Shown: in pieces, positions 1 through 40,509 of the stretch
Position numbering within the stretch: the stretch's first letter is position 1
How the letters are laid out: each line of letters begins with the position of its first letter
Source of the DNA: Bugulina stolonifera
Lineage: Eukaryota > Bryozoa > Gymnolaemata > Cheilostomatida > Bugulidae
Assembly: GCA_935421135.1 (NCBI GenBank)
Contig: OW285189.1
Span: 13,351,072 to 13,415,071 of the forward strand
Length of the DNA stretch: 64,000 bases
Reading direction: 5' to 3'
Program-made: the position numbers and the translations under genes
Notes under the pieces: generated by a model
The model's input: only the letters and a program-made list of their open reading frames with translations
Database searches by the model: none
What the model was told of the DNA's origin: nothing

Positions 1-1029
1 TGTGCTTTTTCACAGAGTCAATGTTGTGCTGTAGACACACTATAGCTATAGCATAGCAATGGCTAATGCTATAGCTGTAGTGTCTGCAGTAGTACCTAGA
101 GACAATTATGCTAGGCTTCATAGATGTTTTCAAATAGTGTAGAAAACAAAGAACTCAATCGCACTTAGCTATTTACATGTTTTCTATATTCGCAAGATTC
201 TGTGACCGAACTCAATTATATGCAATTTAATCGACTATTGCCCACTAAATTATTTGAACTGGTCACATGTGTTCTGTGGACTAATAACAATTATCTTTCA
301 GCCTATTTGCCGGATTCTCAAAAATTTTAATTTGCTGCAACAATAATTTCCATATCAGAGGAGGATTGTAAAAAAGCAGATTACCCCATTGTCCTTATTT
401 ATACATGTGCACAAAGTAGTCACTATTGGCTTGTAGCAGATGAAGAAATTTATAAGCAACAGCACTGTGGCACCTAGTTGGCCTACAAGCTGGAAGAATA
501 TTTAGCAAATGCACTTGGCCAATTTTCAATACGATAGCATCATAGTTACTAGTGCTAAAGCCCATTAACAGCACTGTCAACATACTAAAACCATGGAGGT
601 GAAAGTCCATGAATATTGAAGGTCACTATGGTACATCCTAGCTAATTGATGCAACGTTTAATGTCTCAATCACACTACAACAAAATCTCCATCGAAACTT
701 GAACTCCAACCACTAAATTTATGCCAAAAGAGAAATTTAGTCATACTGTAGACTGGTGATAAAGGGTAACAAATTTGTGTGGTTTCTTTGAGCCGGTGAG
801 GTTCGAGCATATTTAGCAATTACTAGTCTAACATCTCCTACTCTGACAGAAAAATGCCATCCTAAGACCTACGCACTGCTAGATTAAGGCAAATTTGTTA
901 TCGGCCAATATTGGTTATCTATTGCATACAAGTTGTAGTTGATAGGGCATTAAGCTAGTAGCAGTATGTCGCACAATTGTATAGTGTAGCAATGTAAATA
1001 TATTGACATAATAACATCTTATAGTATAC
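1..1029. other. Probable intron or 3' region of the SEA/mucin gene, no exon recognised
   Basis: The last exon seen of the minus-strand SEA/mucin gene ends at 1,030 with a good splice donor (gtatac), so this stretch should be intron leading to further exons beyond the window. Several short open frames occur, but none has flanking splice signals and recognisable protein character together. I see no repeat or RNA gene here. Confidence 0.4.
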
Positions 1030-4000
1030 CTGTTGTAGTAAAGTCACCTTCAGTTATGGTTCTGTCATCTGTTGTCGGTTGTGTGCTGCTTGGTTCTTCC
1101 TCGGATGTTGTAGTAGCGTCACCTTCAGTCGTGGTTCTGTCATCTGTTGTCAGTTGTGTGCTGCTTGCTTCTGAAGAGGTTGTAGATTCAGTTGGTTCTT
1201 CCTCGGATGTTGTAGTAACATCACCTTCAGTTGTGGTTCTGTCATCTGTTGTCAGTTGTGTGCTGCTTGCTTCTGAAAAAGTTGTCGAGTCAGTTGGTTC
1301 TTCCTCGGATGTTGTAGTAACGTCACCTTCAGTGGTGGTTCTGTCATTTGTTGTCGGTTGTGTGCTGCTTGCTTCTGAAAAGGTTGTCGAGTCAGTTGGT
1401 TCTTCCTCGGATGTTGTAGTAACGTCACCTTCAGTCGTGGTTCTGTCATCTGTTGTCAGTTGTGTGCTGCTTGCTTCTGAAGAGGTTGTAGATTCAGTTG
1501 GTTCTTCCTCGGATGTTGTAGTACCATCACCTTCAGCTGTCATTCTGTCATCTGTTGTCAGTTGTGTGCTGCTTGCTTCTGAAAAGGTTGTCGAGTCAGT
1601 TGGTTCTTCCTCAGATGTTGTAGCAACGTCACCTTCAGTCGTGGTTCTGTCATCTGTTGTCAGTTGTGTGCTGCTTGCTTCTGAAAAGGTTGTCGAGTCA
1701 GTTGGTTCTTCCTCGGATGTTGTAGTAACGTCACCTTCAGTCGTGGTTCTGTCATCTGTTGTCAGTTGTGTGCTGCTTGCTTCTGAAAAGGTTGTCGAGT
1801 CAGTTGGTTCTTCCTCGGATGTTGTAGTAACGTCACCTTCAGTCGTGGTTCTGTCATCTGTTGTCAGTTGTGTGCTGCTTGCTTCTGAAAAGGTTGTCGA
1901 GTCAGTTGGTTCTTCCTCGGATGTTGTAGTAGCATCACCTTCAGTTGTGGTTCTGTCATCTGTTGTCAGTTGTGTGCTGCTTGCTTCTGAAAAGGTTGTC
2001 GAGTCAGTTGGTTCTTCCTCGGATGTTGTAGTAACGTCACCTTCAGTTGTGGTTCTGTCATCTGTTGTCAGTTGTGTGCTGCTTGCTTCTGAAAAAGTTG
2101 TCGAGTCAGTTGGTTCTTCCTCAGATGTTGTAGTAACGTCACCTTCAGTTGTGGTTCTGTCATCTGTTGTCAGTTGTGTGCTGCTTGCTTCTGAAAAGGT
2201 TGTAGATTCAGTTGGTTCTTCCTCAGATGTTGTAGTAACATCACCTTCAATTGTGGTTCTGTCATCTGTTGTCAGTTGTGTGCTGCTTGCTTCTGAAAAG
2301 GTTGTAGATTCAGTTGGTTCTTCCTCAGGTGTTGTAGTAACATCACCTTCAGTTGTGGTTCTGTCATCTGTTGTCAGTTGTGTGCTGCATGCTTCTGAAA
2401 AGGTTGTAGATTCAGTTGGTTCTTCCTCAGATGTTGTAGTAACGTCACCTTCAGTTGTGGTTCTGTCATCTGTTGTCAGTTGTGTGCTACTTGCTTCTGA
2501 AAACGTTGTCGAGTCAGTTGGTTCTTCCTCGGATGTTGTAGTAGCATCACCTTCAGTTGTGGTTCTGTCATCTGTTATCAGTTGTGTGCTGCTTGCTTCT
2601 GAAAAGGTTGTGGATTCAGTTGGTTCTTCCTCAGATGTTGTAGTAACGTCACCTTCAGTTGTGGTTCTGTCATCTGTTGTCAGTTGTGTGCTGCTTGCTT
2701 CTGAAAAGGTTGTGGATTCAGTTGGTTCTTCCTCGGATGTTGTAGTAACGTCACCTTCAATCGTGGTTCTGTCATCTGTTGTCAGTTGTGTGCTCCTTGC
2801 TTCTGAAAAGGTTGTAGATTCAGTTGGTTCTTCCTCGGATGTTGTAGTAGCGTCACCTTCAGTTGTGGTTCTGTCATCTGTTGTCGGTTGTGTACTACTT
2901 GCTTCAGAAAAGGTTGTAGATTCAGTTGGTTCTTCCTCAGATGTCGTAGTAACATCACCTTCAGTTGTGGTTCTGTCATCTGTTGTCGGTTGTGTGCTGC
3001 TTGCTTCTGAAAAGGTTGTCGAGTCAGTTGGTTCTTCCTCGGATGTTGTAGTAACGTCACCTTCAGTCGTGGTTCTGTCATCTGTTGTCAGTTGTGTGCT
3101 GCTTGCTTCTGAAAAAGTTGTCGAGTCAGTTGGTTCTTCCTCAGATGTTGTAGTAACGCCACCTTCAGTCGTGGTTCTGTCATCTGGTGTCAGTTGTGTG
3201 CTGCTTGCTTCTGAAAAGGTTGTAGATTCAGTTGGTTCTTCCTCGGATGTTGTAGTAACGTCACCTTCAGTTGTCGTTCTGTCATCTGTTGTCAGTTGTG
3301 TGCTGCTTGCTTCTGAAAAGGTTGTAGATTCAGTTGGTTCTTCCTCGGATGTTGTAGTAACGTCACCTTCAGTTGTGGTTCTGTCATCTGTTGTCGGTTG
3401 TGTGCTGCTTGCTTCTGAAAAGGTTGTCGAGTCAGTTGGTTCTTCCTCGGATGTTGTAGTAACGTCACCTTCAGTCGTGGTTCTGTCATCTGTTGTCAGT
3501 TGTGTGCTGCTTGCTTCTGAAAAGGTTGTGGATTCAGTTGGTTCTTCCTCGGATGTTGTAGTAACGTCACTTTCAGTCGTGGTTCTGTCATCTGTTGTCA
3601 GTTGTGTGCTGCTTGCTTCTGAAAAGGTTGTAGATTCAGTTGGTTCTTCCTCAGATGTTGTAGTAGCGTCACCTTCAGTTGTGGTTCTGTCATCTGTTGT
3701 CAGTTGTGTGCTGCTTGCTTCCGAAAAGGTTGTGGATTCAGTTGGTTCTTCCTCGGATGTTGTAGTAGCGTCACCTTCAGTTGTGGTTCTGTCATCTGTT
3801 GTCAGTTGTGTGCTGCTTGCTTCTGAAAAGGTTGTGGATTCAGTTGGTTCTTCCTCGGATGTTGTAGTAACGTCACCTTCAGTTGTGGTTCTGTCATCTG
3901 TTGTCGGTTGTGTACTACTTGCTTCTGAAAAGGTTGTAGATTCAGTTGGTTCTTCCTCGGATGTTGTAGTAACGTCACCTTCAGTTGTCGTTCTGTCATC

Positions 4001-7000
4001 TGTTGTCAGTTGTGTGCTGCTTGCTTCTGAAAAGGTTGTCGAGTCAGTTGGTTCTTCCTCAGATGTTGTAGTAACGCCACCTTCAGTCGTGGTTCTGTCA
4101 TCTGGTGTCAGTTGTGTGCTGCTTGCTTCTGAAAAGGTTGTAGATTCAGTTGGTTCTTCCTCGGATGTTGTAGTAACGTCACCTTCAGTTGTCGTTCTGT
4201 CATCTGTTGTCAGTTGTGTGCTGCTTGCTTCTGAAAAGGTTGTAGATTCAGTTGGTTCTTCCTCGGATGTTGTAGTAACGTCACCTTCAGTTGTCGTTCT
4301 GTCATCTGTTGTCAGTTGTGTGCTGCTTGCTTCTGAAAAGGTTGTAGATTCAGTTGGTTCTTCCTCAGATGTTGTAGTAGCGCCACCTTCAGTCGTGGTT
4401 CTGTCATCTGTTGTCAGTTGTGTGCTGCTTGCTTCTGAAAAGGTTGTAGATTCAGTTGGTTCTTCCTCCGATGTTGTACTGGTATCACCTTCAGTTGTTG
4501 TTCTCTCATTTGTTGTCGGTTTTGTGCTGCTTACTTGTGAAATGGTTGTAGATCTAATTGGTTCTTCCTCGGTTGTTGTACCACCCCCACCACTTTCAGA
4601 TGTCGTAGTTTCGATAGTTGGAGCAACCGTAGATGTGGATTCAGTAACCGTGGTAGTTGTAACTGTGGTAGATGTAACTGTGGTAGATGTAGTTGTTGTT
4701 ATTACTTCATTGTAAGCCGATAGGATTGCCTCCGGGTCCACAATTACTGCAAAAATGTCAATCAAACCTCAATTAATTCAACGTATTTCCAAATATACAC
4801 TTTACAACTTTGTGCACAGATGTGGCATGGAGACATGAGAGTTTTCAGATCAAAGGAGAAAATGATAGTACCCATTAGAGAACATAATATCATTCCAATA
4901 TTAGGTTGCATCATGTTATACTATATTGCACATATATTGTTTTACATGTATGTTATTTACTCACTTATCATAACGATCTCTGTTGGAACAGTTTGGGGCA
5001 AGAAGTTGGGAAGTGTCCCTGTGACAATGGCAGAAACAACTAACAATTGTGCTTCAGTGTCAGTCTCTGTAGTATCGCTCACAGGTGAGACAAACACTAT
5101 CACAAAGTTCACCACAATAGATCCATTTCTACAAATATTGAAATTATATCTTGGCATCTAAATTTGTTACTAAATTATGTCGTGGAATAGTCAATTTTCT
5201 CTATCCCGAATAAAAAGAATAACTTGGTTTGTTTTATCATACTGGTTCCCTTAGCCACAGCAGTTATTTATGGAGGCACAGCTCCTATTGAAATTAAAAT
5301 TGATGTTTGTATAAATATGGATCCTGACCTGCAATCGAAATAGCTCAAAAATCATATCAGCCCTCAGATCAAATTATCTACATAATATGTGCATGTGTGT
5401 TCTCTGCAGAATTTTCTCCAAAAAGTTTGAATTCTTCGGTGGTGCTGCGTTCTTCAATATGATTTTAGTAGAAAGAGCATCAATGCTATTGGTTCTGTAT
5501 AGGCCTAGCTCTCAACTTTCATGGGGGAGATCTGGGTTGCTAAACTCCCCTTACTTCATTCACCTTTTGCATTTTCTAATTTTAAAGATGTCTAGGCTAT
5601 GATAAAAGTATACTATAAGTCTATAAGACACCTCAAAGTATTTAAAGCTGAGATTGCATAATAGTGATTAGGACAATGTTGCAATGTTACAATGTTACAA
5701 TAAATAGTACATCGATACTGTTGACAATCACATGATTGTGAAGGGTATGTTTATGAAGGTTGAAGCCTTTTAACTGTTACCAGTTAACAGCACAATCTGT
5801 CTAGGTGTTTGTCTGGGGGAATTATATTTCCTTGGAATTCCGAACACTGATGCTAAATGATTTGCATTATCTCTATATTATAGCTATCCTAACTTGTGTC
5901 AGTTACAGCTCCAACCTATCATTCAGTGTCAACAAATTTGAGGTAATTGGTGTCAAAAGTTAACTTGCTGTTGTAATCTTCAAATGAGCGTATTATATAG
6001 TCACTCGCATTGTGAAGTGAGTGATTAGTCATGTGACCAGCAAGCTGTCTTATGCAAGTATTGGTGCAGTGGAAGATGTCACCCAATGAAATCTCCACAT
6101 TATCAGCATAGTGATGTACGTGTATATAGAAATATGCATAGAAATTTAGCAGCTCGTCACCATCACATTACAATTAGAAATAGAAAATACAATCCAGTGC
6201 TGCAACTGCAAAGTACGAGCAAGCTCCATTGTGAATGTTATTCTTATTAGTCAAATACAACATGTTAGCAAACATATAACTTATCATTAGTCACATGTTG
6301 TAGTCAATATCCAATACTCACTCATTGCTGTAAATACATTAATAGATTATAATGAAATCTGTGAATCAAGGTATGCATTATGTACACATGACTTTGTACG
6401 AATTTACGTTACAGAAATCGCTATTATACTACACGGCATCATTTACTGCAGGGAAAACACCAGCATTTACTGCAGAGCAAACGGGAATGGTCTAATAGAA
6501 AACAAATTGGATGAGGACAGCTAGCTGGCTATTGTAATCAATTGCTATGCATGACCATGGGTAGAGCTTGATAAAAAGGAAATACAGAAATAATAGCAAA
6601 TACAGTTCATTTTACCATTTTTCATAATAGCCTTGTTCCTCTCAGTGATTTTTAAATTCCACTGATACACCTTTATTTCTTTTCTATAGGGATGGTCATA
6701 AAAAGGCATAATAATGACATCAATAAGTGGGTTACCAACGCAAATCTGTGTCAGTAATTATACTTACGTAAAACCTTTTACAGCACAGCCCGTGTAATTA
6801 TCAGCTAAAGATGATGCTGCATAGGTTGCATCCATAGCTGCGCAGAATGCATCAGCCTCATCTTTGAAGGCTTGTGAATTTGGGTCTGCAAGGTCTGATG
6901 TAAATGTCTTGTTCAACTCAACACTACCGTTAAAAGCCGCTGAAATTTTTAAAACAAAAATAAGCTTGAAGATATTTGGTCTACTTTTACTACACTCATG

Positions 7001-30991: not shown

Positions 30992-30997
30992 TATTAG
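30992..30997. repeat. Left target-site duplication, TATTAG
   Basis: TATTAG immediately precedes the left end of the 9.5-kb element. The identical hexamer follows the right end at 40,504-40,509. A 6-bp duplication is characteristic of Polinton/Maverick integration. Confidence 0.85.
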
Positions 30998-31368
30998 AGT
31001 AGTATAGTCAGTGCACTTCTAGACAGACACGCACTCATTGACCCCTGTTTTCAACCAATCACAAGCCGGTATTTCCGATTTCAACCAATCACAGAAGAGC
31101 ACAAAAATTTTGCACACGACCTTGCCAAGGTCACCCCAAAATCCCCCCTTCTGATTGGTCGAAAAAACATTTGCACACTTGACCCCGAACCCGGCCACGA
31201 CCCCTTCCCTTCCTCCTTCCCACCCTCCTCCCCTCCCCCTCCCCCACCTCCCACTCCTCCCTCCTCCCCGCCACCGCCCTCGTCCCGTCCGCGCCACCGC
31301 CGTCGCCGCCGCCGCCACCGCCGCCCTCACCACCGCCGCCGCCGCCGCCACCACCACCGCCCTCACCA

Positions 31369-31399
<31 letters not shown>

Positions 31400-32232
31400 C
31401 GCCACCACCACCACCGCCGCCACCACCACCACCGCCACCGCCGCCGCCGCCGCCACCACCACCACCACCGCCGCCGCCGCCGCCGCCGCCATCACCGTCA
31501 TCACCGCCACCCCTCCTCCGCCGCCGCCCACCCTCCCCACCCCGCAACCCCCACTCACCCGAACGACCAATCGTTTGAGGCGGTCAAGCCGCGTCCGCCC
31601 ACGTTGCGTGCGGCGCCGACCGTACACGTGGAGGCGACACCGGTGCCCCGTATCCACCGGGCCAAGCGACTAGGCAGCGGCCCGCCGCTTCTCCCGAGCC
31701 CTCCACTCGAAAAGCTTGTGATCTAAACGAGCGAATTCGGCTGCGCTTCTTCGCCTATAACTCTCATTAGCGATAAGAAGAAGTACTACGGAAGGGATGG
31801 TTTATGATGTGCATCGCATTGTTAATAAAGAAATGTGTAAAGTCTTGGCTATAAATACACTGATGGGAAGAAGGGTTGGTTCTATGATATACATTGTATT
31901 GACAATAAAGAAACGTGTGCATGTGTTAAGTCAGCATATATAATACATTAAATAAACTTTCCGCAATGGTGACAATAGAATGAATAAAAGATTGTGTACA
32001 CGTGTTAAAACACAATTGAAAGAATAAAAGACACATATTTAAAAGAGTATGTCATATCTGTTATTAGCAAGAAAGTCTGTGTACATGTGTTAAGACAGTG
32101 TATATTATACATTAGATAAACTTTTCACAATGGTAGCAATAGAATAAATAAAAGGTTGTGTGCATGTGTTAAGTCAGCATTATGTAATATATTAAATAAA
32201 CTTCACAATAGTAGCAATAGAATAAATAAAAG
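30998..32232. repeat. Left terminal inverted repeat, about 1.2 kb
   Basis: The outer 180 bp holds three CCAAT-type motifs (near 31,053, 31,086 and 31,152). A GC-rich block follows (about 31,180-31,720), largely a run of CCG and CCA triplets in an otherwise AT-rich genome. The inner 450 bp consists of degenerate units of roughly 75-90 bp containing GTGCATGTGTTAAGTCAGCA and AATAGAATAAATAAAAG. It reaches to within about 20 bp of the stop codon of the IkB-like gene. The long open frames in the GC-rich block encode only Ala/Pro/Thr or Gly runs and are not treated as genes. Confidence 0.9.
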
Positions 32233-32249
32233 AGGGGTTTAGGTACTTA

Positions 32250-33698
32250 TTACTCATCTTCATCAGAAGTCGTAGGAGCTATAATGTTTACGACTTCGGT
32301 CTCAGCATACTCTAATTGATATGCTCCAGCTCCAAACTCTTGACACAGTCTTACCTACAAGATGATTTTAGTTTTTTACTCAGACGAATATCACTCAAGG
32401 TGGACAAAGCAAGAAATCTATACTTCTTTATGTTGTTGGTCCCTTACCATATCTGCTGATTTGTAGAGGTGAGCTAGTTGTTGAGGAGTTTCACTTTTGT
32501 AGTTACGAACTTCAGAATCAGCTCCCAATCTTAGACATGTATGTAGACATTCGTAGTCTTCATTCTCTATGGCAATGTGAGATGGGGCATATCCATCTCC
32601 CATTCGCTATAATATCAAACAAGAGAATAGAATTAAACTCCCCATCTAACTTATCAATTCGATCTACTCTACTTTTATTCCACTGTAATGTATTCACTTA
32701 CCCTCATATCTAAGTCAGCCCGAGTATTTTTTTTTAGTACTTTTAGTGCCTCTCTATGCTTGCTGCTATGCGCTGTTTCAACAATGAGGTGGACTACACT
32801 CCTTCCATCATGATTGTAGCTCTGTACATTGTCTTGGGGAAGTGATTTGTAAGGAACTCTGAAGTATGGATGCTTTACTTCTGCTCTGGTCAAACTTGTG
32901 GTTAGAGCATGAATAACCTTAGCTCTACCCAGACGTGCAGCAATGTGAAGGGGGGTGTCACCTTCCAAATAAACATTAGCAATATAGATAAGTATCGAAT
33001 TGTTACAAGTTTTGCAATACTATATTTTTTAACAAGCAATGCATGCAAACATTGGTGCTATTAAACACTAACCCCAAGCATCGGCTATTGCTCCATCCGC
33101 TCCCCTTGTGATGATGAGACGAATTAGTGAATCCGAACAATAAGACTGTACAGTTAGGTGAAGTAATGTCTGCCGATTCGCATTCTTTGTATTCAGTTGT
33201 TTGTGACTCCTCGCAACAAATACCGCGAGTGCAATGGCTCTCTCATCTCTATCTCGGGCTGCTTCTAGTACCTCACTACATCATTTAGCATGATATTTGT
33301 TTTTCACATAGTTGAGAGGTAGTTATATGGGAAATTTGTCTATCATATTTTATTTTGATCATAAAAGACAATACGAAACAAAAAAAAAAAAAAAAATAGT
33401 TGGAAGTATGTATAACTTACAACTCTTCATCCTTTCCATCTTGCTCCCAAAAGATAGAACGAATTTCTTCTAGTAACTGTGTGCTAAGCTTATTACGAAT
33501 ATCGGTTAAAGGATCCCATTTCTGCCAATCTAGAGGTAAGCTTTTTTGGAGAAAGAGCTCAGACACCCCCTCAAATAAGTCTTTATTCTCATACTTGCTT
33601 TGTTCTGTACATCTTTCCACTGTTACCTTCATCAGCTCTTGGTTTATAGGAGTCATTAGCTTGTTGCTATACTCGCTTGATCCATATCCACTTTCCAT
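32250..33698 (-). CDS. IkB-like ankyrin repeat protein, cargo of the mobile element
   Basis: Five exons (33,698-33,421; 33,275-33,073; 32,961-32,702; 32,606-32,448; 32,354-32,250) join in phase to give 334 residues. Ankyrin repeats run from about residue 120 to 300, with the signatures NRQTLLHLTV, GDTPLHIAARLG, DGRSVVHLIVE, GDGYAPSHIAIE and SETPQQLAHL. A longer insertion between the second and third repeats, the GAD turn motifs and an acidic C-terminus (SDEDE) recall IkB proteins and the C-terminal half of NF-kB p100/p105. Residues 2-7, ESGYGS, resemble the phosphodegron DSGxxS used for stimulus-dependent destruction of IkB. IkB proteins bind Rel factors and hold them inactive; that role here is inference. 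A TATA-like box lies 87-95 bp upstream of the start codon. A Bcl-3-like or other ankyrin protein is the alternative. Confidence 0.75.
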
Positions 33699-33784
33699 GC
33701 TATTTGTGTGCTAACCTTCTTTAATTTCTATTAAGAACAGACTGGAGCTAGAAAGAGTTAACTAAACTACTGTTTCCACCTCTC

Positions 33785-33824
33785 TTTATATAGTGAATAA
33801 AAAGATACAAATAAAGCTGATTGG
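33785..33824 (-). promoter_or_regulatory. Core promoter of the IkB-like gene: TATA and CCAAT motifs
   Basis: On the minus strand CTATATAAAG (33,784-33,793) lies 87-95 bp before the start codon and CCAAT (33,820-33,824) about 27 bp further upstream. This is the arrangement expected for a TATA-type polymerase II promoter. It faces away from the companion gene. Confidence 0.55.
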
Positions 33825-33844
33825 CTAACAGCATATACATTGGA

Positions 33845-34790
33845 GTGCATTGGAAACACATCAGAGTGCATCGAATCACATCGGGAAAGATCGAAAACAC
33901 ATAGGGAAACATCGAAACACATCGGGAAAGGTCGAAAACACATCGGGAGAGGTCGAAAACACATCGGGACACATCGAATCACATCGGGGGAGGTCGAAAA
34001 CACATCGGGACACATCGAATCACATCGGGGGAGGTCGAAAACACATCGAATCACATCGGGGGAGGTCGAAAACACATCGGAGGAGGTCGAAAACACATCG
34101 AATCACATCGGGGGAGGCCGAAAACACATCGAATCACATCGGGGGAGGTCGAAAACACATCGAATCACATCGGGGGAGGTCGAAAACACATCGAATCACA
34201 TCGGGGGAGGTCGAAAACACATCGAATCACATCGGGGGAGGTCGAAAACACATCGGGGGAGGTCGAAAACACATCGGGACACATCGAATCACATCGGGGG
34301 AGGTCGAAAACACATTGAATCACATCGGGGGAGGTCGAAAACACATCGAATCACATCGGGGGAGGTCGAAAACACATCGAATCACATCGGGGGAGGTCGA
34401 AAACACATCGGGACACATCGAATCACATCGGGGGAGGTCAAAAACACATCGGGTTACATCGGGGAAGGTCAAAAACACATCGAGACACATCGAATCACAT
34501 CGGGGGAGGTCGAAAACACATCGGGGGAGGTAAAAAACACATCGGGTTACATCGGGTTACATCGGGTTACATCGGGTCACATCGGGGAAGGTCGAAAACA
34601 CATCGGGACACATCGAATCACATCGGGGGAGGTCGAAAACACATCGAGACACATCGAATCACATCGGGGGAGGTCGAAAACACATCGGGGGAGGTCGAAA
34701 ACACATCGGGTTACATCGGGTTACATCGGGTTACATCGGGTTACATCGGGTTACATCGGGTTACATCGGGTTACATCGAATCACATCGGG
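33845..34790. repeat. Minisatellite between the two divergent element genes
   Basis: About 950 bp of variant units built from CACATCGGGGGAGGTCGAAAA and CACATCGAAT, with two blocks of a simpler 10-bp unit TTACATCGGG (near 34,545-34,580 and 34,705-34,770, the latter about 7 copies). It fills the gap between the two promoters. Open frames exist on both strands only because stop codons are absent from the unit. It could be a binding-site array or a replication-related repeat, which the sequence alone cannot tell. Confidence 0.9.
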
Positions 34791-34829
34791 ATGCAATAAA
34801 TCAGACTAAAAAAAGGCAAATCACTTCTG

Positions 34830-34853
34830 ATTGGACAGAGATTTCCATAAAAG
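34830..34853 (+). promoter_or_regulatory. Core promoter of the novel element gene
   Basis: An inverted CCAAT (ATTGG, 34,830-34,834) is followed by GAGATTTCC (34,838-34,846), one base from an NF-kB-type site, and a TATA-like CATAAAAG (34,846-34,853). The first ATG is at 34,962. The kB-like resemblance is weak evidence alone but notable next to an IkB-like gene. Confidence 0.4.
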
Positions 34854-34961
34854 CAAGCGTGAGAGAGGATTTTTATCATTACCACTCAACCACCTAGTAA
34901 AGACTTGCAACTCTGTGGATATTTACTAATTTCTCTGAATAAACATCACTCAACAATTAAT

Positions 34962-37900
34962 ATGGTGAGTAAACTTATTTTAATATGTATTTTAGTATGA
35001 ATTTACTCATTTGAGTTAACATTGGGACTAATTCTATTTTAGTAGTGATATAATACTCCCTTGGTATGACTAGAGCTTAGAAACTTTGTAAGCTTATGTA
35101 TTAAACTGTTTTGATTCTCAACATGAGAGCAAGTATGTAGAGATCTGATCTGTCTATACTACAATTTGTGTGACCGGAGCTTAGAAGCTTTATATGTGGT
35201 GAGATTTTTTTCAATATGAGTAGTTATACCACTAGTAGTGTAATAAGTATCAAAACAGTTTATTACCACTTGTACTGGCTATACTAGTACATCCTAGCTA
35301 TTTTAATATGTATTTTAATATGAACTTACTCATTTGAGTTAACATTGGGGCTAATTATATTTTAGTAGTGGTATAATTCTCCTTTGGTATGTCCAGGGCT
35401 TAGAAACTTTGTAAGCTTATATATTAAACTGTTTTGATTCTCAACATGAAAGCATGTGTGTAGAGATCTGCTCTGTCTATACTACAATTAGTGTGACCAT
35501 AGCTTAGAAACTTTATAAGTGGTGAGATTTATTTTCAATATGAGTAGTTATACCACTAGTAGGGTAATAAGTATCAAAACAGTTTATTACCACTTGTACT
35601 GACTATACTTGTACATCCTAGCAAAGAAGTATATTATCAAGTGTAGCCTATACTCTACATCCAAGACTATACTGTACTAAAGTGGCCTATCACAATACTT
35701 GGGGTGGACTTGCTGCTAAAAAGATTAACTGGATAATTCTAATGAATAGGTCTGCACTAAAGTGATTTATTACACTACTTGGGATGAACTTGTTGCTAAA
35801 AAGATTAACTGAATAATTCTAATAAATAGGTCTACACCAAAGTGATTTATTACACTACTTAGGATGAACTTGAAGCTAAAAAGACTAACTGATTAATTCT
35901 AATAAATAGATCTGCACTAACACAAGAGTAATTTATCTCTCTGTTTGGGAGGAGCTTACCATCAGAAAGACTCAATTGGTTGAAAAACACATAAAAAGTA
36001 AGGGGTGGTATTTTTGGTTTTTTTTCTGTCTTATACTGATTATTCACTTCAAAATTAATTCTTGCTAACACATGTTCTGTTTATCTGTTCTTGTTTCTAT
36101 TCCCCAGTGACTATGGTGAGTTGGTGGTTTTATCCACACAGTTAAGGCTTTAGTATATATTATTACTTGTTATTTAACTTGCCTATGCTATTCATTCTAA
36201 AAGTAGTTGTTATCAGTATTCTTATTCTCTTGCTCAATAACTATAGGGATTAGTATTTTTGTATACTTGACTTGTACACTACCACTATGCTCATGTTTCC
36301 TATATATTTTTATTCATTCTTATTTTCTTTGTTTAGTAACTATGTTGCATTAGTAGTTCCGTTTACTTGACTTATGCTTTGGTATATGTTTATTACTCTA
36401 CATATACTTACAGGCTTCTACATCTAAATATCAAAGAAAGAAATATATAAGAAAAATTAAAACATCAAAAAAAGGTACGAAGTATATGATTACGTACGAC
36501 TCGGAAGACAGAAGACGAATCTCGAGGAAAAGAATCCCATCTCCAGAAATGGTTAGTCTATTATCTTATTTGTTCACACATGCATTACACCTTCAATCCA
36601 CTATGGTGTTGGGTTTCTAAGATGTCAAAGGAGATTACTGACATTTCTGCAGAAGTACATGTTAGTTACACATAATGATGATGTACTTTTTTATACTATA
36701 AGCCTCTTACCATGTCTAGAATGTCAAAAGAGACTACTTCCTTTTTAAAACCAGATGTTAATTAGTCATAGTATGATTTTCTCTAATTCTATAAGTCTCT
36801 TACCATGTCTAAGATGTTAAAGATTAGTGATATTTTTATTATAAGTATTGCACTTTCTTTCTTATGTATTATTTTTATCAATAAGACACTTTTTTTCTTT
36901 TCTTATGTGAAAAAATATAACATAAATTACAACTGGTTTTCTTATGTTGATGATGTATTTCTCTTTATGTGAGTAAATAGACAGGCTTTAGTAGACTTGC
37001 TTAGTACTTAGAGTGCCAGTTTTTTCATCAAATTCTTCAAAAACCATATATTACAAATAGCTATGTTAATGTAGTTTGTTAATTAGTCACTGCACATTTT
37101 ATTTACATTATAGAATGAAAAAGAAACAGAACTAGGGGAAGAAGAGATTGCTTTATTTGAACAATGTGGGGGAGTAGATGGCTTCGAGATAGGTAAGAAT
37201 GATTTAGTATCTATTTGTAGATTTAGAATCTTTTTTTTTTTTTTTTCTGATTTACAAGTAAGTCATATGTTCTCTCTCACTTATTCTTGTTATTTTCTTT
37301 CTTTTTTAGGACTCAGAGCAAAGTCGATATGTAAGGGGGGTCTAAGATTCTATGTCTTTGTTAGTGATGAGACAAAAAGAAGACTGGAGATGTCACTAAC
37401 AAAGCCATTTGAATCGGATGACCCCTGTTTTTTATGCAATAAGAATGTTGGGCACCGACGAGGTGTCCACATTCAACAGCATTTTTTGCTCCGAATCTGT
37501 TTTTGCTATCACATAACAGTAGATGATGAGGGGATGAATAGACACTACAACTTTCCATCTAATCATCATATTGATGGAAAGCCCTGTCACCGACACATCT
37601 CATTCAACACACGCTTTCTAACAGATATCTATTCACTAAAAAAGACCATATCCTTTTTGCAAAGGGTCACTGGTCACTCTCCACCTTCCAAAATACTCAT
37701 CCCCGCATACACTCCAACAACTGTTGGTGGGGTAGTATACCCTCCCTTCTTTAAGGGGATGTCTACTACTCCATTCTCTTTAAAGTCTGGGGTGTGCTCT
37801 TCACAATTTCCTCTCCCTTCTCACCGTCATTTTGATTCAGATGCTTCTTCCATCAGTAACTCTCTTACTAATGGAGACATTTCCATCTCTACTTCTTCTC

Positions 37901-38670
37901 TTACAACTACTACTATTACTACTACTCCTTCTACTACTTCTTTTCCTCCACTCTTTTCTTCACATTCACCCTCTCATTCTCCTGAAAGATCTGTAAAGTC
38001 TGGGGTGTGCTCTTCACAATTTCCTCTCCCTTCTCACCATCATTTTGATTCAGATGCTTCTTCCATCAGTAACTCTCTTACTAATGGAGACATTACCACC
38101 TCTACTTCTTCTCTTACAACTACTACTATTACTACTACCATTACTACCACTCCTTCTACTGCTTCTTTTCCCCCACTCTTTTCTTCACATTCACCCTCTC
38201 ATTCTCCTGAAAGATTTGATGATACAGTTACCACTGTTTCGATACCTACTTCTACTCCCACCTCTTCACCTGCTCCACTCTTTTTCTTAGATTCACCCTC
38301 TTTTTCTCTTGGAAGGTCTAATAATACAATTACTAGTCTTTCAATACCTACTTTTATTACTACTTCTACTACTACCACTTCTTCCTTTTCTTTAGCTTCA
38401 CCCTCTCTTTCTTTTGGAAGAGAGCTACTTAGCTCGCAATCTCCTTCTTGTTCGTCTGAACTCAATCTTAATACCCCCACCACTATTACCCCCATAGAAG
38501 AGGAGACTGTCAGTGAACTAGTTGATCGAAGCAGACTCCCCCCATCTTTTTTCTCTGGAGCAGTTGAGTATTACCGCTCTGCCATTTTTCATCTCAAGAA
38601 GAATGGGTATCACAGAGAGGTAATAGCACAAGCTGAAGCTTACCTTCGAGTCAGTGAAGAAAAGCTCTAA
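34962..38670 (+). CDS. Unknown 526-residue protein of the mobile element, Cys/His cluster and Ser/Thr-rich region
   Basis: Exons 34,962-34,964 (the ATG alone, followed by gtgagt), 36,414-36,551, 37,114-37,192 and 37,310-38,670 join in phase to 526 residues. A lone ATG exon is unusual, but donor, acceptors and phase all fit. The N-terminus (2-47) is strongly basic (KYQRKKYIRK, DRRRISRKR), suggesting nuclear localisation. A compact, Cys/His-rich domain follows (about 74-190): C113-x2-C116, H122, H127, H131, C137-x-C139 and H141 could bind zinc. Residues of about 230-440 are Ser/Thr-rich and include a roughly 71-residue module in tandem (KSGVCSSQFPLPSH twice). The C-terminal 45 residues look helical (SGAVEYYRSAIFHLKKNGYH). 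I do not recognise the family. It could be a DNA-binding or transposition protein of the element, but there is no direct evidence. Confidence 0.7.
34977..35625. repeat. Tandem duplication of about 323 bp in the first intron of the element gene
   Basis: Two adjacent copies, each starting ATTTTAATATGTATTTTA (34,977 and about 35,300), are roughly 90 percent alike by eye. Just downstream (about 35,680-35,920) there are three copies of an 80-bp unit containing GCTAAAAAGATTAACTG. The intron is thus largely built from local duplications. Confidence 0.85.
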
Positions 38671-39239
38671 TCATCTTTTCTTTTTTCTCCCACTCTCTTT
38701 CTCCCACTCTCTCTCTCTGTAGTGTCTCATTCCCTCTGCATTTACTTTTATGTGATATCAAATCAGTGAGGATTTTTTTAAATTATTTTTTAAATTATTA
38801 TATAATGGTATTCTAACACTTATACACATCCTTTTATACATTCTATTGCTACTTTTGTAAAAAGTTTGTTTAATGTATTATATGTGCTGACTTAACACAT
38901 GCACACAGCTGTCTCTTGCTATAATAGCTATGACATACTCCTTTACATATGTGTCTTTTATTCTTTCAATTGTGTTTAAATCATATTATAATGATATTTC
39001 AACATGTGTACACAATCTCTATTTATTCTATTGCTACTATTGTGAAAAGTTTATTTAATGTATTATATATGCTGCCCTTAACACATGTACACAGACTTTT
39101 CTTGCTAACAATAGCTATGACATACTCCTTTACATATGTAGCTTTTTTTATTCATTCTATTGCTAGTGTTGTAAAAAGTGTATTTAATGTATTACATAAT
39201 GCTGACTTAACACATACACTCAATCTTTTATTTATTCTA

Positions 39240-40101
39240 TTGCTACTATTGTAAAAAGTTTATTTAATATATTACATAATGCTGACTTAACACATGCACA
39301 CAACCTTTTATTTATTCTATTGCTACTATTGTGAAAATTTTATCTAATGTATAATATACACTGTCTTAACACATGCACACAGACTTCCTTGCTAATAACA
39401 GATATGACATACTCTTTTAAATATGTGTCTTTTATTCTTTCAATTGTGTTTTAACACGTGTACACAATCTTTTATTCATTCTATTGTCACCATTGTGAAA
39501 AGTTTATTTAATGCATTATATATATATATGCTGACTTAACACATGCACACGGTTCTTTGTTGTCAATACAATGTATATTATAGAAACAACCCTTCTTCCC
39601 ATCAGTATATTTATAGCCGAGACTTTACACATTTCTTTATTAACAATGCAATGCACATCATAAACCAAGCCTTCCGTAGTACTTCTTCTTATCGCTGAAA
39701 CCAAGCCTTCCGTAGTACTTCTTCTTATCGCTAATGAGAGTTATAGGCGAAGAAGCGCAGCCGAATTCGCTCGTTTAGATCACAAGCTTTTCGAGTGGAG
39801 GGCTCGGGAGAAGCGGCGGGCCGCTGCCTAGTCGCTTGGCCCGGTGGATACGGGGCACCGGCGTCGCCTCCACGTGTACGGTCGGCGCCGCACGCAACGT
39901 GGGCGGACGCGGCTTGACCGCCTCAAACGATTGGTCGTTCGGGTGAGTGGGGGTTGCGGGGTGGGGAGGGTGGGCGGCGGTGGAGGAGGGGAGGCGGTGA
40001 TGACGGTGATGGCGGCGGCGGCGGCGGCGGTGGTGGTGGTGGTGGTGGCGGCGGCGGCGGCGGTGGCGGTGGTGGTGGTGGCGGCGGTGGTGGTGGTGGC
40101 G

Positions 40102-40132
<31 letters not shown>

Positions 40133-40503
40133 TGGTGAGGGCGGTGGTGGTGGCGGCGGCGGCGGCGGTGGTGAGGGCGGCGGTGGCGGCGGCGGCGACG
40201 GCGGTGGCGCGGACGGGACGAGGGCGGTGGCGGGGAGGAGGGAGGAGTGGGAGGTGGGGGAGGGGGAGGGGAGGAGGGTGGGAAGGAGGAAGGGAAGGGG
40301 TCGTGGCCGGGTTCGGGGTCAAGTGTGCAAATGTTTTTTCGACCAATCAGAAGGGGGGATTTTGGGGTGACCTTGGCAAGGTCGTGTGCAAAATTTTTGT
40401 GCTCTTCTGTGATTGGTTGAAATCGGAAATACCGGCTTGTGATTGGTTGAAAACAGGGGTCAATGAGTGCGTGTCTGTCTAGAAGTGCACTGACTATACT
40501 ACT
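39240..40503. repeat. Right terminal inverted repeat, about 1.26 kb
   Basis: This is the reverse complement of the left end, almost base for base through the GC-rich triplet block (about 39,780-40,320). It differs by an extra copy of a roughly 40-bp segment near 39,660-39,730 (CCTTCCGTAGTACTTCTTCT appears twice). Further degenerate copies of the inner repeat unit extend inward to about 38,830, so the repeat zone is longer here than on the left. Confidence 0.9.
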
Positions 40504-40509
40504 TATTAG
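40504..40509. repeat. Right target-site duplication, TATTAG
   Basis: Identical to the hexamer before the left end of the element. It lies 9 bp from the stop codon of CFAP52. Confidence 0.85.

Follow-up and report, generated by a model that had tools for sequence, protein, structure and literature searches.

An element with Polinton-type ends and an IkB/Cactus-like gene, and a proposed partner that shares its ends, in the genome of the bryozoan Bugulina stolonifera

A 64,000-nucleotide stretch of the genome of the bryozoan Bugulina stolonifera (contig OW285189.1; hereafter the window) contains a 9,506-bp element, at window positions 30998-40503, that has the ends of a Polinton/Maverick but none of the Polinton core genes looked for. 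It carries two genes, one of which (gene A) is an IkB/Cactus gene judging by its relatives. Elements of this type, which we call W, share their ends with a second type, S. We consider it probable that W is the non-autonomous member of a two-type Polinton-like system, in which the partner S, encoding integrase, packaging-type ATPase, protease-like and capsid-like proteins, would move W in trans and the IkB protein of W would have a role of its own.

Structure of the W element

The hexamer TATTAG stands on either flank of the element as a 6-bp target-site duplication, just as had been claimed in a sequence-only reading of the window, made without database searches. The inverted ends of about 1.25 kb described there were borne out as well: the outermost arms (30998-31803 and 39698-40503) are 99% complementary over 806 nt, and inward of these, separated by small indels, lie two shorter pairs of arms, of 174 nt (95%) and then 268 nt (97%). 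Both ends start with AGTAGT, that is (AGT)2, and Polintons/Mavericks are recognised by long inverted ends that start with (AG)n or (AGT)2; (AGT)2 is a Maverick end motif reported in PMC8097293. Two divergent spliced genes had been proposed, and in our gene models every intron runs from GT to AG and the whole reading is in frame. The expected Polinton genes, said to be absent, were indeed not found: a tblastn search of the element with ten S-type proteins detected no integrase, protease, ATPase or capsid gene (the sole match had an E value of 0.21 over 16 amino acids), and the list of open reading frames contains none for a protein-primed polymerase B. W is a non-autonomous element with Polinton-type ends, and by its core genes it does not qualify as a Polinton. 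The features of the window copy are as follows (exons according to the gene models).

30992..30997, no strand: left target-site duplication TATTAG, read from the sequence
30998..32203, plus strand: left inverted end, beginning AGTAGTATAG; its first 691 bp are common with S-type elements
~31203-31528: C+G-rich trinucleotide-like stretch inside the left inverted end
32250..32354, minus strand: gene A exon 5, with stop
32448..32606, minus strand: gene A exon 4
32702..32961, minus strand: gene A exon 3 (ankyrin)
33073..33275, minus strand: gene A exon 2 (ankyrin)
33421..33698, minus strand: gene A exon 1, with start codon
33843..34790, no strand: tandem array between the divergent genes, with units of ~10, 21 and 31 bp built on CACATCGGG
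34962..34964, plus strand: gene B exon 1 (ATG only, before GTGAGT; alternative ATG/GTGAGT at 36113-36115)
36414..36551, plus strand: gene B exon 2
37114..37192, plus strand: gene B exon 3
37310..38670, plus strand: gene B exon 4, with a Cys/His-containing stretch followed by S/T-rich repeats, and stop
39256..40503, minus strand: right inverted end, from the inverted-repeat comparison
40504..40509, no strand: right target-site duplication TATTAG

Copy number and insertion

The ends were searched for in the 234,951,659-base assembly of B. stolonifera, in which the window lies on C3. Second copies, the check proposed in the sequence-only reading, are numerous: the exact first 46 bp of the element occur 542 times (268 + 274) and the first 25 bp, with up to three mismatches, 1115 times (561 + 554), while the reversed controls gave 0 in both cases; these end counts cover the whole genome, and the lists of places the first 100. 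Besides the window's own, we compared 29 end loci, 11 of which match the window element past the terminal 691 bp and 18 in the end only. From the latter, ten S copies were chosen for their differing interiors, and they are therefore not a random sample. Identical 6-bp flanks were present in all 11 elements read at both ends (the ten S copies and the window's), with a different hexamer each time. At one locus (L014, C10:7255103-7255605) two element ends stand back to back, 77 bp apart, as two adjacent insertions.

Recent activity had been deduced from the near identity of the ends, and this held. The arms of the window element are 99.5% identical over 798 nt, all 40 places scored out of 153 candidates (the window's own among them) are 100% identical over 401 interior bp, and W copies are more than 99% alike over the 1.7 kb compared.

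The proposed partner elements

The ten S copies fetched are 10.6-11.4 kb long and have one common core, with interiors alike among the ten. Their terminal 691 bp are 87-99.7% identical to those of the window element in 10/10, and the arms within a single copy are 91.9-100% identical (best alignment). Beyond the ends, the interiors of S and of the window element have little in common, three copies (L032, L038 and L049) also matching the subterminal sequence to about position 1067.

On one strand, S copy L047 encodes a 175-amino-acid protease-like protein, a 448-amino-acid capsid-like protein, proteins of 141 and 248 amino acids (the latter possibly penton-like, going by a sequence motif), a 356-amino-acid integrase with a chromodomain, proteins of 194 and 132 amino acids, a 219-amino-acid ATPase, and proteins of 135 and 416 amino acids. 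The integrase matched rve (PF00665, E 2e-11, above the Pfam cut-off) and Chromo (E 1.2e-6), and the ATPase matched Pox_A32 (PF04665, E 1.3e-6, above the cut-off), so that S has the combination of rve integrase and A32-type ATPase characteristic of Polintons/Mavericks. The protease-like protein gave weak matches to Peptidase_C5 (PF00770, adenain; E 0.097, below the cut-off) and to the S273R protease (E 0.047). The capsid-like protein, the candidate for a double jelly-roll major capsid protein, had eight matches, of which one is identical (100%) and the other seven have 28-49% identity. No relative came to light when viral contigs were scanned with the integrase, the ATPase and an alignment of the capsid-like protein. 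Among phage records, the capsid-like protein had no match and the ATPase had 13 partial ones, which cover 41% of the query at 26-28% identity and are all from Enterococcus phages.

All ten proteins are full length and free of stops in 5 of the 10 S copies, counting L047, the query itself. L035 and L041 are also free of stops, with a shorter match to the 416-amino-acid protein; L031, L037 and L049 have stops, and L049 has split frames as well. No open reading frame for a polymerase was present in L047 or L031. Scored as a Polinton/Maverick, S has the integrase and the ATPase but not polymerase B.

Census of the two types

A gene B 47-mer, used as a marker of W, was found at 121 genome places with up to three mismatches (60 of them exact), which puts W at 121 copies at least; a 46-mer of the S capsid gene was found at 195 places with the same tolerance. 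Fifty exact-ended elements were classed: every one on C1 and on C2, plus those of the first two end pairs on C3, where two ends without a mate were dropped. They divide into 24 S, 22 W and 4 neither, none with both gene sets and none with polymerase B; since S was scored by exact matches alone, the four may include diverged S. The gene sets of the two types are mutually exclusive. Matches to gene A and gene B occur together in 21 of the 22 W, and the other one has gene B only. Sizes are also characteristic, 8.4-9.6 kb in 19/22 W and 10.0-10.9 kb in 20/24 S.

The sequence-only reading had looked to relatives with the same ends for polymerase B and integrase. Integrase, ATPase, protease-like and capsid-like genes are there, in agreement with its view of the element as a non-autonomous derivative with a replaced core, but polymerase B was not found in them. 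A genome search for the polymerase B family PF03175 gave 11 places, of which C1 and C2 together have six and C3 has none. All 11 are outside the 50 exact-ended elements classed, which come from C1, C2 and the start of C3. Five of these places (C1:12828897, C2:16262050, C10:524940, C1:4280945 and C4:2373604) cover family positions 4-460 (of 468) and lie within frames that are 1,214-1,381 amino acids long, with no stop inside the match in four; the two on C1 and the one on C2 lie outside exact-ended elements. These five long places are possible helpers or a separate Polinton family. A 13.9-kb element was considered as a polymerase-bearing class and rejected: it holds W genes, and the stretch of it that was read (L051) has one frame for an Exo_endo_phos endonuclease and another that is ORF1-like, which would fit an insertion of a long interspersed nuclear element.

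Sequences common to both types

In addition to their ends, S and W have the array motif in common. Counts of CACATCGGG are 32 for the interior of W, 24 for the piece of L047 and 0 for the other 54.5 kb of the window. A two-motif pattern for the array matched 10,006 genome places (reversed control, 0), none of them between C1:3991645 and C1:5415724, the interval that holds the polymerase B place C1:4280945. The ends also come in the same alleles: at positions 572/599 we found A-C, G-C and G-T, every combination in both S and W, although G-T rests on one S and one W and the 50 rows compared for this include some loci twice. These shared alleles suggest exchange of ends, or common descent of the ends of both types. 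From about position 692 inward, most ends can be told apart as S or W.

Genes carried by W

Gene A, the content of the cargo that was not visible in the sequence-only reading, has five exons with GT..AG introns throughout and encodes 334 amino acids, starting with MESGYGSS. Ankyrin repeats (Ank_2, E 9.9e-13 in Pfam) and relatives named as IkB support its assignment as an IkB/Cactus gene. Among 19 proteins, its closest named relative is 'cact' of Bugula neritina (P0009; 71% identity, 87% covered), followed by the 'NF-kappa-B inhibitor alpha-like' protein of Watersipora subatra (P0010; 59%, 85% covered). A further IkB-like protein, P0014 (318 amino acids, 46% identity to gene A), comes from a short contig of 8.5 kb and could be another mobile or viral IkB.

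The host has an IkB gene of its own at C5:15180327-15180725, and four matches to Rel-homology exons (PF00554) were found in the genome. This host gene is one of 148 matches to gene A exon 1 (150 of 160 candidates scored), the other 147 being taken as W copies and not checked singly. It was found with the N-terminal piece of gene A, the search with the whole protein (104 of 896 candidates scored) being flooded by W copies. None of the 150 listed gene B matches lies near it. Over exons 1 and 2 (901 bases, L052), intron 1 and the intron 2 donor are at the same positions in the host and W genes. Upstream of the W start, an open frame of the host gene has similarity to the N-terminus of P0009; W gene A therefore appears to begin at an internal methionine of the host protein. 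The retention of introns points to capture from genomic DNA, not cDNA. The canonical phosphodegron of IkB proteins is DSGxxS; the corresponding region reads ESGYGS in W and host and DSGFMS in B. neritina. Host and W genes align without gaps over 160 codons, with nonsynonymous divergence (dN) of 0.30, synonymous divergence (dS) of about 2.4 (saturated) and dN/dS of about 0.12 over both branches.

Gene A might instead have come in with the element by horizontal transfer from another animal, in which it was formerly an IkB gene, an origin that we consider unlikely though well worth keeping in mind. In the core of exons 1-2, identity between W and host (72/101) is no higher than between W and B. 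neritina (71/100) or host and B. neritina (68/100), and the burst of W copies is far more recent than the divergence of W and host genes, given copies more than 99% alike over 1.7 kb and 100% over 401 bp. W being equally far from the two genes, the capture would be old or have happened in another species, and the copies are young. Against such a transfer, the N-terminus MESGYGS is common to W and the Bugulina gene, and a longer alignment fits Bugulina slightly better (96/161, vs 88/160 for B. neritina).

Gene B has four exons and encodes 526 amino acids, with a basic N-terminus, a Cys/His-containing stretch and S/T-rich repeats; from this composition, we would guess at a transcription-factor-like role. 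Its residues 1-230 found no homologue among 5.8 billion proteins (371 candidates), and the searches of PDB and Pfam gave nothing credible. A 150-amino-acid piece of gene B had 199 candidate matches in the genome, of which 150 were scored. Among these, 59 are 100% identical to the piece and 10 contain stops; one copy or more accounts for two rows. Two diverged matches, at C1:13706322 (49%, two stops) and C5:12615306 (79%, stop-free), are hints of an older gene B lineage.

Elsewhere in the window, a long tandem array spans positions 1019-4765 and can be read without stops on either strand (1,248 and 1,219 amino acids), the minus-strand frame coding for a T/S/E-rich repeat protein of mucin-like composition.

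A two-type system and its alternatives

Our preferred explanation is that W is a satellite, which would have kept the cis-acting ends and the CACATCGGG array while its core was swapped for a captured, intron-containing IkB gene and gene B. The S integrase would recognise the common ends and insert both types with 6-bp duplications. Because W has these ends and no integrase, its movement would be in trans, by S proteins, and S particles may carry it. S proteins or DNA would set off NF-kappa-B signalling in the host, and the IkB protein of W may damp this response, to the benefit of the persistence of S and W alike. Replication of both could depend on the host machinery or on polymerase B of other elements in the genome.

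Several observations weigh against this explanation. A polymerase is seen in neither S nor W, the protease match of S is weak at both E values, and its capsid-like protein matched no family or solved structure in Pfam, PHROG or PDB. With dS saturated between W and host, the timing and source species of the gene A capture are not fixed by it. Of the roughly 557 element equivalents to which the 1115 ends correspond (up to three mismatches), about 240 are outside the 121 W and 195 S core matches, and of 6 arrays within the initial 6.1 Mb of C1, 3 are outside both the exact-end and the exact capsid-gene lists; a third element type with diverged ends may exist. The three arrays (C1:3757747, C1:5434912 and C1:6092591) are CACATCGGG arrays with S-like inverted halves, either diverged S copies or a third type.

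S and W could also be segments of a single polintovirus-like animal agent that is bipartite and needs both of them, S providing morphogenesis and integration and W the control of the host (IkB) and a transcription-factor-like regulator (gene B) acting on the shared array. The near-equal numbers (24 S and 22 W of 50, none with both gene sets) would suit this, as would window W ends up to 99.7% identical to S over 691 bp, with end alleles and array motif in common, and the 140 of 150 listed gene B matches that are stop-free. We find it doubtful nevertheless: dependence of S on W is without support, the core counts are unequal genome-wide (121 W vs 195 S, up to three mismatches), neither type has a polymerase, and no homologue of gene B was found in the searches described above.

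A simpler relationship, in which W is a plain parasite of S that spreads through its recognised ends alone and trapped the IkB gene by accident and with no role for it, strikes us as rather improbable. Functionless captured cargo is known in other transposons, and W has broken copies, with stops in 10 of the 150 gene B matches and TGA in four listed gene A exon-3 matches. The gap-free alignment of gene A with the host gene and its low dN/dS, across both branches, argue the other way. So do differences from the window copy in gene A exons 3-5, as read, which are mostly synonymous in L005 (4 synonymous and 0 amino-acid-changing, with a 1-bp gap), L025 (3/0) and L013 (3/1), not in L019 (5/6), L010 and L024 having none (0/0); these differences are few and not independent. 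Finally, an assembly artefact or isolated, simple inverted duplication is rejected as next to impossible, with hundreds of end copies (542 exact) across the genome and perfect duplications with distinct flanks in 11/11 elements.

Relation to known systems

Polintons are usually 15-20 kb long. The two-type system that we favor is like Polintons/Mavericks (polintoviruses, adintoviruses) in its 6-bp duplications, (AGT)2 starts and long inverted ends and, in S, in the A32-type ATPase and rve integrase; S also has a capsid-like gene and a protease-like one with weak similarity to adenain. It is unlike them in size (9.5 kb for W and ~10.9 kb for S), in having polymerase B in neither type and, in the case of W, in lacking the core genes and carrying intron-containing genes of host type. 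Polymerase-less integrated Polinton-like viruses are known in protists; these bear capsids, and the available portion of the source describes no two-type system with shared ends and host immune cargo (PMC10120064).

For its IkB gene, the nearest parallel to W is offered by the vankyrins of polydnaviruses, which are also IkB-type genes on virus-like DNA. Inhibition of NF-kappa-B by vankyrins is reported, and they are said to lack the sequences for regulated degradation (PMC3757122). Vankyrins act in the wasp's victim, and W, unlike them, has retained the host gene's MESGYGS start. A further difference is that W is mobile, dispersed and Polinton-ended, and lies in the animal's own genome. Polydnavirus segments are without structural genes, which lie elsewhere.

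Pack-MULEs and Helitrons hold host genes between transposon ends and are moved in trans, as W would be. W differs from them in having both of its multi-exon gene models complete and maintained in 121 copies at least. In Pack-MULEs and Helitrons, the capture of host genes at full length is described as exceptionally rare (PMC6431247). In the titles and abstracts of the literature searched, neither a Polinton-ended element with an IkB gene nor bryozoan Polintons are described.

If our explanation is correct, a Polinton-family element splits its genes between co-amplified partners and keeps an intact IkB-type regulator in at least 121 copies. It would then be testable in a living animal whether Polintons make particles that encounter innate immunity and how polymerase-less Polintons replicate. 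The bipartite arrangement, if true, would parallel among Polintons the way in which polydnaviruses divide structural from immune-effector DNA, and would have evolved inside its own host. This bryozoan also has an unusual dosage of NF-kappa-B inhibitor genes, which is relevant to studies of its immunity and to the annotation of its genome.

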